A stretch of DNA of 33,717 nucleotides, taken from positions 1-33,717 of IMG/VR virus record IMGVR_UViG_3300027865_000635. One strand, given 5' to 3'. The DNA is from a virus. The position numbers and the translations under genes are program-made. Shown here piece by piece: positions 942 through 4,186 of the stretch (positions within the stretch are counted from its first letter, which is position 1; every line of letters begins with the position of its first letter). A model generated the notes under the pieces. The model worked only from the letters and a program-made list of their open reading frames with translations. It made no database searches and was not told the origin of the DNA.

Positions 942-991
942 ACAAGCCAGAATTACTCGACTACATGGAACCCACAAGAGAGACACCATGA
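938..991 (+). other. 17-codon leader remnant ORF bridging to exonuclease gene
   Basis: ATG at 938 begins a third copy of the leader: 33 bases (938-970) are identical to the starts of the two preceding genes, and then the sequence diverges. The short frame ends at TGA 989-991. Both of its ends overlap neighbours as ATGA, with the stop of the Ala/Trp gene and with the start of the exonuclease-annealase gene. It may act only as a translational-coupling bridge left by recombination. I see no sign of a functional peptide. Confidence 0.5.
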
Positions 992-2418
992 AGGACGTAC
1001 TACTCGTAGACCTGTCGTCAATATTCCACCGTCACTGGCACGTGTCCAAGGACGAGCCCGTCAGTAGCGCCGCCAGCGGCACCTTGAAGGAGGTGCTCTC
1101 GTTGGTCTCCGAGTACGACCACGTAGGTATCTGCGGCGACTGGGGGCCGTATGACCGCAAGGAGATGTTCCCGGCGTACAAGCAACATCGTGATAAACCC
1201 GAGGCAGCCCTGATTGACCAGCTGAGGAAGACGCAGGAGAAACTCAAGGCGGAGGGGTTCACACTGTTGGCTAAAAAAGGGAAGGAGGCTGACGATATTA
1301 TCGCGACTATAGCCAATCAGCTGCAGGGCGAGTGCCGAGTCACCATAGCGTCTGGAGACAAGGACCTGATGCAGCTGATTGGCCCTAACGTGATAATGAG
1401 GAACAAGGGCGAACTGATTGATGTGGCCGTAGTCGAAGAGCGCTTCGGGGTATTGCCATCGCAGATGCTGGACTACCTCAGCCTTATGGGCGATTCGATC
1501 GATAATGTGCCCGGCGTGAAGGGCGTGGCCAAGAAGCACTCCCGTGAGCTGATTAGCAAGTACTCCGACATCGAAGGCGTGTTTCGCGCAGTAAAGGAGT
1601 GCCCCGAGGACTTCTTTCTCCAGACGGGTAAGCCGAGCAAGGTATTCGAGAACCTCGTAGCAGGGGAAGAGGCAGCGCGCATGGCGAAGGCGCTCATCTC
1701 GCTCCAGACTGAAGTAGACATCGATTACTCAAGTATCTTCGAGCCCAGAATGCCGGTGCCGATAGAGACTGGCGAAGGCATGAACCAGGACGCGAGGCTG
1801 GGCACGGCCGCGAGCGACGCCCCCCTTGTCGAAGCCGAAGTGGTGGAGCAGTCAGAGGCTGTAGTAGTGAGGCCCTCCAGGGTCGTGGATGTCGAGTACC
1901 GGAGGCAGCTTGAGCCGACATCAATGGCCGATGGCTCCAATAACGCGTGGGCGTTGGCCAATACGATATACGAGTCAAGGGTGTTTGCCGCGTGGCCGAA
2001 TCCAGGCGCCATCATCGCTGTACTCCTCAAGGGGCGGTGTATGGGGCTCGACAGCATCACCAGCATGCAGTCCTTCGACTGCCTCGACATCAAGGGGCGG
2101 CTAACAATCGCGCCCAAGGCCGTGACGCTGGCAGCAATAGTGAAGAGCTCGGAGCTATGCGAGTACTGGCAAGTGGTCGAGACCACTGAGTCCAAGTGTG
2201 TAATCGAAACGAAGCACGTCAAGGACAAGAAGCCGACCCTGTTTACTTATACACTCAAACAAGCCGAGCGTGCCGGTCTTACGGGAAAGGCGCAATGGAA
2301 AATGCGTCCAGACACTATGCTGCGCCACCGCTGCGCCTCAGAGTGTGCAAGGATGGTCTACCCCGAGCTGGTCATGGGAATCCACACATCCGAAGAGATG
2401 AGGGACGCTGAGTCATGA
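988..2418 (+). CDS. 5'-3' exonuclease (FEN type) fused to RecT-like annealase
   Basis: A 476-residue protein with two recognisable halves. Residues 1-255 are a Pol I/T5-type 5'-3' exonuclease: VDLSS with D8, a helical-arch region with D51, R57 and K58, then YKQHRDKP, KEADDII (E100, D102, D103), IASGDKDLMQL (D124, D126), and the LMGDSIDNVPGVKGV helix-hairpin region (D169, D172). Residues 256-318 are an acidic, low-complexity linker. Residues 320-473 match a RecT/Red-beta-like phage annealase family: WALANTIYESRVF, PGAIIAVLLKGRCMGLD, a DIKGRLTIAPKAV strand pair, a TYTLKQAERAGL helix, W437, PDTMLRHRCASECARM, and a GIHTSEE end. Inferred role: end resection and single-strand annealing in one chain, for phage recombination or concatemer formation. 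RusA and MazG lie downstream in the same operon. The exonuclease call is firm. The annealase call rests on motif memory but on many aligned positions. Confidence 0.88.
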   Translation: MKDVLLVDLSSIFHRHWHVSKDEPVSSAASGTLKEVLSLVSEYDHVGICGDWGPYDRKEMFPAYKQHRDKPEAALIDQLRKTQEKLKAEGFTLLAKKGKEADDIIATIANQLQGECRVTIASGDKDLMQLIGPNVIMRNKGELIDVAVVEERFGVLPSQMLDYLSLMGDSIDNVPGVKGVAKKHSRELISKYSDIEGVFRAVKECPEDFFLQTGKPSKVFENLVAGEEAARMAKALISLQTEVDIDYSSIFEPRMPVPIETGEGMNQDARLGTAASDAPLVEAEVVEQSEAVVVRPSRVVDVEYRRQLEPTSMADGSNNAWALANTIYESRVFAAWPNPGAIIAVLLKGRCMGLDSITSMQSFDCLDIKGRLTIAPKAVTLAAIVKSSELCEYWQVVETTESKCVIETKHVKDKKPTLFTYTLKQAERAGLTGKAQWKMRPDTMLRHRCASECARMVYPELVMGIHTSEEMRDAES

Positions 2419-2580: not shown

Positions 2581-3039
2581 ATGAATATTGATGATTTGAC
2601 AATAGGCGAAGCACGGAAGCTGATCGAGATGTTCGGCAGTCCCGGATCTGCTGGTTATGATAACGGGATGATCGGGGAGTACGTGATTGTCAGATGCCGT
2701 GATGCCGGTGTCCACGCGGGAGTACTGGTGTCACACCACGGCCGAGAGTGCGTCCTCAAAGACTCTCGGCGGCTGTGGTACTGGAAGCCCGCGGCCGGGA
2801 AGAAATGCCTATCTGGCGTCGCCGTCGCAGGGCTTGACGCTAAGTCCAAGGTCGGAGCAGTGGTAAGCCGCCAACACCTGACGGAGAACTGCGAGATTAA
2901 TCTGTGCTCGGCCGCCGCGACGGCTACGGTAGCGGCAGCGGCTACGGTAGCGGCTGCGGCAGCGGCTACGGCGACGGCGACGGCAGCGGCTACGGCGACG
3001 GTTAACACAAGAGAGGACGCAATAAATGTCATGGCCTAA
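2581..3039 (+). CDS. DUF6948-like phage protein with Ala/Thr repeat tail
   Basis: A 152-residue protein of unknown function, starting at ATG 2581 after GGGAGAAGCT. The body recalls DUF6948-type phage proteins: LTIGEARKLIEMFG, IGEYVIVRCRDAGVHAG, SRRLWYWK, LSGVA..GL, SKVG and HLTENCEI. From about residue 110 it becomes pure Ala/Thr/Val. The same bases, read one frame back, encode a Gly/Tyr/Ser/Asp tract (codons 2919-3002) ending at TAA 3003-3005, like the tracts of the genes at 10 and 33491. So the repeat is either out of its usual frame here or reached by frameshifting. In the printed frame the gene overlaps the next start by 14 bases. In the other frame it would end 20 bases before it. Confidence 0.7.
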   Translation: MNIDDLTIGEARKLIEMFGSPGSAGYDNGMIGEYVIVRCRDAGVHAGVLVSHHGRECVLKDSRRLWYWKPAAGKKCLSGVAVAGLDAKSKVGAVVSRQHLTENCEINLCSAAATATVAAAATVAAAAAATATATAAATATVNTREDAINVMA

Positions 3040-3352
3040 TTTAGAACTGCATCATGGGCACAGGACACCCGTGACAGGGTGCAAGGCTTGTTACTGGGCA
3101 GGAAAGGAGGGCTGGGTCTGCGCTTGCGGGTGCGTAAACATCAAACATGATGTTCCCGCTGAAGATCTGGTAAAGGATGCTGCCTGCAGGAATTGCGGCA
3201 ACACCATTGCCGAGACCAGGCGGGCATGCAGGTGCGGGCATGCGAGGAACAAGCATAACGAAATGAGCGGCAAGTGCACCGGCAAGGATTGCAAGTGCGG
3301 TGAATTCGAGCATAAATCAATACCGAAAGCAAAAGGAGCGGTTCGCCTATGA
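3026..3352 (+). CDS. Cys-rich zinc-ribbon-like protein
   Basis: A 108-residue protein with at least four CxC or CxxC pairs: CKACYW, CACGC, CRNCGN, CRCGHARNKHNE and CTGKDCKCGEFE. The last two elements form a pattern (CxCGH...H...C..C.C..F) often seen in small phage and actinobacterial zinc-binding proteins. It is likely a metal-stabilised fold, with no catalytic signature and no function that I can name. AGAGG lies upstream of the ATG at 3026, and the stop overlaps the next gene by ATGA. Confidence 0.75.
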   Translation: MSWPNLELHHGHRTPVTGCKACYWAGKEGWVCACGCVNIKHDVPAEDLVKDAACRNCGNTIAETRRACRCGHARNKHNEMSGKCTGKDCKCGEFEHKSIPKAKGAVRL

Positions 3353-3681
3353 AGATGGATGAGTATCAAAGCCTGGCTGCGAGGACAGCGACAGCAAGCG
3401 GGGCGGTGGAGTTCGACACTGTAATCCTAGCCCTGGGGGTGGCGGGCGAGGCGGGTGAGGTGGCGGACATAGTGAAGAAAGCGTACGGCCATGGGCACGG
3501 CCTGGACGTGAACGATCTAGCGGCAGAGCTAGGCGACGTCCTGTGGTACGTGGCCACGCTGGCCGGATTGCACGATGTCAGCTTGTCGGATATCGCCGAG
3601 AAAAACATAGAGAAGCTGAGGCGGAGATACCCGGATGGGTTCTCTCGTGACGCCTCCGTTAACCGGGCTGATGATGAGTAG
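3349..3681 (+). CDS. MazG-like nucleotide pyrophosphohydrolase
   Basis: A 110-residue all-alpha NTP pyrophosphatase of the MazG-like superfamily. The two metal-binding EExxD-type elements are visible: GEAGEVADIVKKA (E34 and E37) and AAELGDVLWYVATLA (E60 and D63). The C-terminal NIEKLRRRYPDGF is also typical. Such enzymes hydrolyse (d)NTPs to NMP and pyrophosphate. Phage copies are thought to clean the nucleotide pool or lower ppGpp-type signals. AAGGAG precedes the start, and the ATGA overlap couples it to the Cys-rich gene. It has the length of a single-domain phage MazG. Confidence 0.88.
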   Translation: MKMDEYQSLAARTATASGAVEFDTVILALGVAGEAGEVADIVKKAYGHGHGLDVNDLAAELGDVLWYVATLAGLHDVSLSDIAEKNIEKLRRRYPDGFSRDASVNRADDE

Positions 3682-4186
3682 CAGAACCAAGGCGTGCCAT
3701 GGTGAAGGGGGCTTCGGGATGGTCCTCACGGGCAAGCCGCACGCGAAGGGGCGTCCAAGGTTCAGCAAGGCCACAGGGAAGCCATTCAAGGCCGAATCAA
3801 CCAGAGAGTTCGAGGCGATGCTCGCGGCTGAGATCAAATGTGCGTGGCCTCACCATGAGCCGCAGTGGAGCTGCCCCATGATCCTTGAAGTGGTAGCTAT
3901 ATTCGACAGGCCTAAGCGACTTCTCCGGAAAAAGGATACTGACGATATGATACCGCACACGGTGGTTCCTGACGCTTCCAATATACTGAAGAGCGTGGAA
4001 GATTCGCTCAACCTATCCGGTAAGATTTCGGATGATTCTGTCATATACTCATCGAGGTGCAGGAAGTTTTACGGAGAAAGGTACGACGAGGCGGGATGGG
4101 TGCAGGAGGCCCAGACCATGATCTGGCTCAGAAAGATAGGAGCCGGGCCGAAGTGCCCAATTGAAGGATGGCCTACGCTGCCATGA
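3671..4186 (+). CDS. RusA-like Holliday junction resolvase
   Basis: An endonuclease of the RusA family, about 171 residues if started at 3671 or 170 if started at 3674. Both ATGs overlap the end of MazG, and the frame is open back to 3635. Family signs are GKPHAKGRPRFSK near the start, the acidic metal-binding motif VPDASNILKSVEDSLN, and SDDSVIYSS for the third acidic residue, followed by a basic RCRKFYGE strand. It would resolve Holliday junctions made by the exonuclease-annealase upstream. The gene ends 14 bases inside the convergent amidase gene. Confidence 0.88.
   Translation: MMSSRTKACHGEGGFGMVLTGKPHAKGRPRFSKATGKPFKAESTREFEAMLAAEIKCAWPHHEPQWSCPMILEVVAIFDRPKRLLRKKDTDDMIPHTVVPDASNILKSVEDSLNLSGKISDDSVIYSSRCRKFYGERYDEAGWVQEAQTMIWLRKIGAGPKCPIEGWPTLP

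Follow-up and report, generated by a model that had tools for sequence, protein, structure and literature searches.

A phage-encoded protein family joining a FEN-type nuclease and a tailless RecT/Red-beta core in one chain

In the stretch of viral DNA analysed here (hereafter the window), which comprises 33,717 bases and represents the whole IMG/VR virus record IMGVR_UViG_3300027865_000635, classed as linear, we identified a gene of a soil-type phage in which a FEN-type nuclease and a RecT-like annealase domain are encoded as a single polypeptide. We consider it likely that this protein acts as a one-chain SynExo recombinase, in which a covalent linkage stands in place of tail-mediated docking, the activity itself being inferred. 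We also lean towards the view that it belongs to a distinct and widespread family of self-contained recombinases, which would go back to one ancestral fusion with FEN replacing the PD-(D/E)XK exonuclease, in which tethering would have made the docking tail dispensable and the tail was lost, and the domains of which would still be exchanged between phages by recombination. The record also encodes a P22-type portal, a terminase and a DnaD-like helicase loader. The fusion gene and its parts are as follows.

988-2418, + strand: FEN-RecT fusion ORF, 476 aa, same architecture in 47 other contigs
997-1449, + strand: 5'-3' exonuclease N-terminal (PIN/resolvase-like) subdomain, aa 4-154, Pfam PF02739 (5_3_exonuc_N), E 3.5e-29
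1453-1731, + strand: 5'-3' exonuclease C-terminal H3TH/SAM-fold subdomain, aa 156-248, Pfam PF01367 (5_3_exonuc), E 7.1e-20
1753-1902, + strand: acidic, predicted-disordered linker, about aa 256-305, AlphaFold2 pLDDT <50 at 263-308
1903-2409, + strand: RecT/Red-beta core annealase domain, aa 306-474, PHROG 561/4171 and AlphaFold2 domain model

The nuclease half is supported by several lines of evidence. Both Pfam matches of the fusion protein lie above the cut-off (102.1 bits for PF02739, 71.7 bits for PF01367), and in NCBIfam the region aligns with DNA polymerase I, namely with the N-terminal nuclease part of that enzyme (E 1e-51). The AlphaFold2 model of this domain, with pLDDT values mostly above 90, matches ExoIX (Xni) in Foldseek (E 8e-18, TM (target) 0.85), and a profile of the fused family aligns across the Taq nuclease domain. 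The acidic motifs of FEN enzymes that the first-pass annotation had listed (D8, D51, E100-D103, D124/D126, D169/D172) are all present, with D8, D51, E100, D102, D103, D124 and D126 located within the N-terminal and D169 and D172 within the C-terminal subdomain. These nine residues are invariant in 43/43 fused homologues wherever a copy spans them; D8 is found in 42, the remaining copy being cut by the contig end. From the domains, the acidic residues and the fold we conclude that the N-terminal half is a FEN/Pol I-type 5'-3' nuclease, from which a 5' flap/exonuclease activity is inferred.

In the C-terminal half, the Pfam RecT model matches the window protein only weakly (E 8.8e-4, 19.3 bits, just under the 24-bit cut-off); the fused relatives L097 (34.1 bits) and L105 (30.7 bits) exceed this cut-off. 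Several RecT/Bet PHROG families match this half with E values of 1e-6 to 1e-9, including PHROG 561 (E 9.9e-10) and PHROG 4171 (E 5.3e-9) over aa 342-475. When the RecT half was used as a tblastn query, 216 phage records were matched, in 192 of which at least 80% of the query length was covered at about 26-33% identity. Modelled alone, the RecT part was predicted by AlphaFold2 with a pLDDT of 90.9 and a pTM of 0.81, and the two best structural matches of the model (VIA Z scores) were lambda Red-beta (7ujl, Z 9.2 over 140 residues) and the Listeria phage RecT LiRecT (7ub2, Z 6.9 over 138 residues), with human RAD52 ranking lower. By sequence alone, the fused-family profile finds lambda Bet in the PDB (E 1.2e-4). 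The absence of a RecT/Red-beta fold, which would have refuted the initial reading, was thus checked, and a match was found by both structure and family profile instead; the domain that had been placed at residues 320-473 is present, but starts slightly earlier, at about aa 306. By profile and fold, the C-terminal half is a RecT/Red-beta core, for which single-stranded DNA binding, annealing and the formation of oligomers are inferred.

Profiles, tblastn searches and AlphaFold2 models with structural comparison thus bear out the proposed single chain of both parts, and the search for a stop between the halves was negative, 988-2418 being one open frame from the ATG at 988 to the TGA at 2416-2418 (476 codons). 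AlphaFold2 run on 39 fused homologues gave two well-predicted domains and an overall pTM of 0.59, which is expected because the two domains sit on a flexible tether. In a Foldseek search of the PDB, the full fusion model retrieved ExoIX, plant PLE1, mycobacterial FEN, T5 FEN and Taq, and also lambda Red-beta. The acidic character of the linker noted earlier holds throughout the family, in which the linker measures 46-187 aa and is net negative in 43/43 fusions. The linker is otherwise variable, with the exception of a motif, EDEIMQDIEEAMPT, which recurs in L124, L121 and L148 and is conserved in one subclade, where it might represent a protein-binding site.

The search for further phages with this fusion yielded 47 IMG/VR contigs besides the window, derived from 42 metagenomes as counted from the metagenome identifiers in the contig names. 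Among the best 80 loci of an IMG/VR scan with a FEN-domain alignment, 42 continue into a RecT domain in one ORF, and among the 18 loci from an independent RecT-seeded scan, 12 were fused, including 5 on new contigs. When the window protein or one of its halves was used alone in peptide-pattern scans of IMG/VR, no relatives were detected; only the alignment-seeded scans found the family. Outside this collection, no fusion was encountered in the material searched: in tblastn searches with fused proteins, none of 50,697 phage or 72,556 plasmid records reached a coverage of at least 80%, and a RecT profile run over 1,160 genomes of three groups (396 + 385 + 379) found standalone RecTs only, with the strongest cellular matches in Myxococcota genomes and none of them fused. 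A scan of genome contigs, in which cellular Pol I sequences dominated the matches listed, does not bear on absence. In the open-licence literature, our searches turned up no description of a FEN-RecT fusion. A tyrosine integrase is encoded in 16/30 fused records and a P22-type portal scores above the cut-off in 14/30; the phages that carry the fusion gene are therefore mosaic, and many are temperate.

This recurrence also bears on the possibility that the ORF is an artefact or a decaying gene, i.e. a chance read-through of two adjacent genes or a misassembly. A degenerate copy of the RecT tail just downstream of the fusion (see below) could be taken in its favour; however, the same fusion is found in 47 contigs from 42 metagenome datasets, the catalytic residues are all kept and both halves are under purifying selection, so that we regard this explanation as having practically no standing and rejected it on the recurrence in other contigs.

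In close pairs, dN/dS was below 1 in both domains, with typical values of 0.09-0.36 for FEN and of 0.004-0.2 for RecT, one pair reaching 0.50, and the linker was under weaker constraint than both domains. Purifying selection thus acts on both the FEN and the RecT domain. In the RecT-domain tree, the fused proteins form one side of a branch (support 97/93), which, on sequence grounds, places the fused RecT clade at a single origin. The fused proteins also cluster in the FEN tree (SH-aLRT 84), where five non-fused rows fall inside the group: L118, L120, L129 and L140 run off their contigs, and L155 is a long-branch row of uncertain placement. Split halves were sought in this FEN clade and were not found among relatives that are complete on their contig, L155 being the exception. 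In the pairs L119/L137, L097/L098 and L105/L128, one domain is nearly the same in both proteins, whereas the other has diverged. We take this pattern as recombination within the gene, at or near the linker; the halves therefore recombine while the fusion persists.

Two features distinguish the fused RecTs from their standalone relatives. First, the window protein ends 5 residues past the RecT core, after a final EEM, and has no C-terminal tail. Across the family, 1-15 residues follow the core in 53 fused rows (which include some contigs counted twice) versus 61-333 in 90 standalone relatives, and the two ranges do not overlap. Second, YqaJ, DUF3799 and PDDEXK_1, the models for the customary partner exonucleases, remained below the cut-off in all 30 fused records, versus matches in 11/20 standalone-RecT records (Fisher p 4.5e-6, uncorrected for relatedness), and none of the three matches the window record; the other 9/20 standalone-RecT records likewise lack an exonuclease recognised by these three models. 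The counts of missing exonucleases are limited by the fact that virus records may be fragments, and both contrasts come from one clade and do not represent independent events. The closest standalone RecT relatives found, namely L264, L270, L273 and the prophage-type RecTs L286-L288 in Myxococcota, differ from the fused RecTs in carrying a long C-terminal tail, and in L270 and L273 the next gene encodes a PDDEXK_1 nuclease.

In lambda, the C-terminal domain of Red-beta (residues 193-261) binds lambda Exo and SSB, the contact with Exo is presumed to load Red-beta onto the growing overhang, and residues 1-177 suffice for annealing (PMC8303780). C-terminally truncated Red-beta still anneals but does not support recombination (PMC5052646). 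Under the one-chain SynExo reading, the FEN/Pol I-type domain would act at a break, gap or nick, degrading the 5'-ended strand to leave 3' single-stranded DNA, and the RecT domain, held on a flexible acidic tether of 50-190 residues, would bind the emerging strand and anneal it to its complement. The lambda system consists of two proteins joined by the Red-beta C-terminal tail; in the fusion, the linker would take over the job of the lost tail. RecT-type proteins, as in lambda Red and RecET, act on 3' overhangs, and the polarity of a FEN enzyme fits resection for this reason. The originally suggested loading of the annealase onto the newly exposed strand is an inference, which is supported by the lost C-terminal tail and the absence of a separate exonuclease. 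Nuclease polarity, substrate, annealing, direct loading and a role in phage recombination, repair or concatemer formation are inferred for the fusion as well. Since the lost tail binds SSB in lambda, the fusion must supply or dispense with this contact; an SSB is present in 1/30 fused records. Against the one-chain reading, there are no activity data, Red-beta without its C terminus loses recombination, and FEN enzymes favour flaps, nicks and gaps, the efficiency of the fusion's FEN on blunt ends being unknown.

The main rival explanation, which we consider possible yet unlikely, assigns the nuclease a role as a flap endonuclease after annealing rather than as an end resector before it: RecT would anneal, e.g. 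at lagging-strand gaps, and the tethered FEN would then remove the 5' flap or RNA primer for sealing. The fold and the YK..R arch residues match flap endonucleases, ExoIX, mycobacterial FEN and T5 FEN are among the nearest structures, and a flap nuclease of the same superfamily has been proposed for primer removal in jumbo phages (PMC7824862). However, no alternative resection exonuclease was recognised in the fused genomes, so that this explanation needs either a FEN that handles both tasks or resection by the host, and the docking tail that was lost serves, in lambda, the resecting exonuclease.

A further rival is a replicative role, with FEN mainly removing primers for phage replication by the host polymerase, RecT serving as a tether on single-stranded DNA and recombination being secondary. 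Such a role would be in line with Pol I 5' nuclease domains being the closest cellular homologues among the matches listed, with the binding of single-stranded DNA by RecT cores, and with none of the 30 fused records encoding a family-A polymerase. We nevertheless regard it as very improbable: a simple tether would not need a complete RecT core as strongly conserved as this one, Pol I is already supplied by the host, and the closest standalone relatives adjoin PD-(D/E)XK nucleases, which is the typical SynExo arrangement.

Compared with known systems, the one-chain SynExo recombinase proposed here shares the core fold and the 5'-3' nuclease/annealase pairing with lambda Red (Exo + Beta) and with RecE + RecT of Rac. 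In these two-component SynExo systems, however, the exonuclease is of the lambda-exo/RecE PD-(D/E)XK type instead of FEN, and the SSAP has an exonuclease-docking C-terminal tail instead of only 5 residues past the core. The initial statement that phage recombination systems normally use two proteins is correct for the textbook systems, but there is a precedent: PhiV10p37 of Escherichia phage phiV10 (YP_512292.1), annotated as a RecE-RecT fusion, also combines an N-terminal exonuclease with a C-terminal RecT in one chain, and phiV10 is likewise a podovirus-type temperate phage. Its nuclease is PD-(D/E)XK (DUF3799, E 6.9e-21) and not FEN, it keeps a tail of 102 residues past the RecT core that the FEN-RecT family lacks, and its RecT half is distant from that of the window (21% over about 60 aa, E 1e-4). 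PhiV10p37 was excluded as a 'RecET fusion' from a later survey (PMC8766483). A fusion of exonuclease and annealase is thus already known, and it is FEN as the nuclease and the missing tail that set the present family apart. T5 FEN (D15), E. coli ExoIX/Xni and the Pol I 5' nuclease domain have the fold and the catalytic acidic residues in common with the N-terminal half but lack an annealase domain, and in Rhizobium phage B1VFA (L096) a FEN adjoins a RecA-like gene, which, unlike in the fusion, is a separate gene and a RecA-type partner. A poxvirus FEN1-like protein reportedly acts in homologous recombination. We also observed that a FEN of Bacillus phage BalMu-1 (L095, 1593-2879) is extended at its N terminus by about 135 residues, is annotated as DNA polymerase I and adjoins a Gam-like gene; this is possibly another FEN fusion.

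The surroundings of the fusion gene in the window contain the following features.

938-991, + strand: leader ORF of 17 codons, a truncated third copy of the MNKPELLDYME head; its stop overlaps the fusion start (ATGA)
2465-2557, + strand: second, diverged copy of 30 residues from the RecT C terminus, +1 frame, just past the fusion stop
3349-3681, + strand: MazG-like pyrophosphohydrolase, Pfam 9.2e-14, PHROG 229 1.2e-39
3635-4186, + strand: RusA-like Holliday junction resolvase, Pfam 4.8e-18, PHROG 140 2.8e-20

MazG and RusA do follow the fusion on the same strand, as the first-pass annotation had stated, but this neighbourhood is not conserved in other fused genomes. The RecT-tail copy, which shows 55% protein identity to aa 444-474 and 62% DNA identity, is probably a recombination remnant and has the appearance of a 3' end left over from a resident allele that was replaced. 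A programmed frameshift joining this copy to the fusion was considered and rejected, as no slippery site is recognisable and a recombination remnant is the simpler explanation. Upstream, an exact 112-bp repeat (1-112 and 378-489) provides two neighbouring ORFs with an identical 34-residue head (MNKPELLDYMESKTACSPAMDWVKDTEGTPQELW) and differing tails, and its third, truncated copy at 937-970 gives rise to the 17-codon ORF, whose translation is possibly coupled to that of the fusion via the ATGA overlap. Downstream, 2581-3039 holds a DUF6948 gene (E 1.9e-23). Read in its own frame, this gene ends with an Ala/Thr repeat, whereas translation of the same DNA in the +2 frame gives RRDGYGSGSGYGSG...GYGDG-stop; a Gly/Tyr-rich tail could arise here by frameshifting, either programmed or through a sequencing error. 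A similar Gly/Tyr repeat is carried by the ORF at 10-390. In 14 fused loci we further noted a small uncharacterised gene family of about 155 aa without a Pfam match (L108:4113-4577 and relatives), which is located directly 3' of the fusion in L099 and L108.

In this natural fusion, a 1:1 stoichiometry is fixed, the docking tail is removed and the nuclease is of the FEN type, for which, to our knowledge, no ring form is known; the fusion would therefore allow a test of whether the tail gives only co-localisation. How lambda Exo, a trimer, passes single-stranded DNA to the larger Red-beta oligomer is an open question (PMC7496540). Being compact, the fusion is also a candidate for use in double-strand recombineering outside Enterobacteria.
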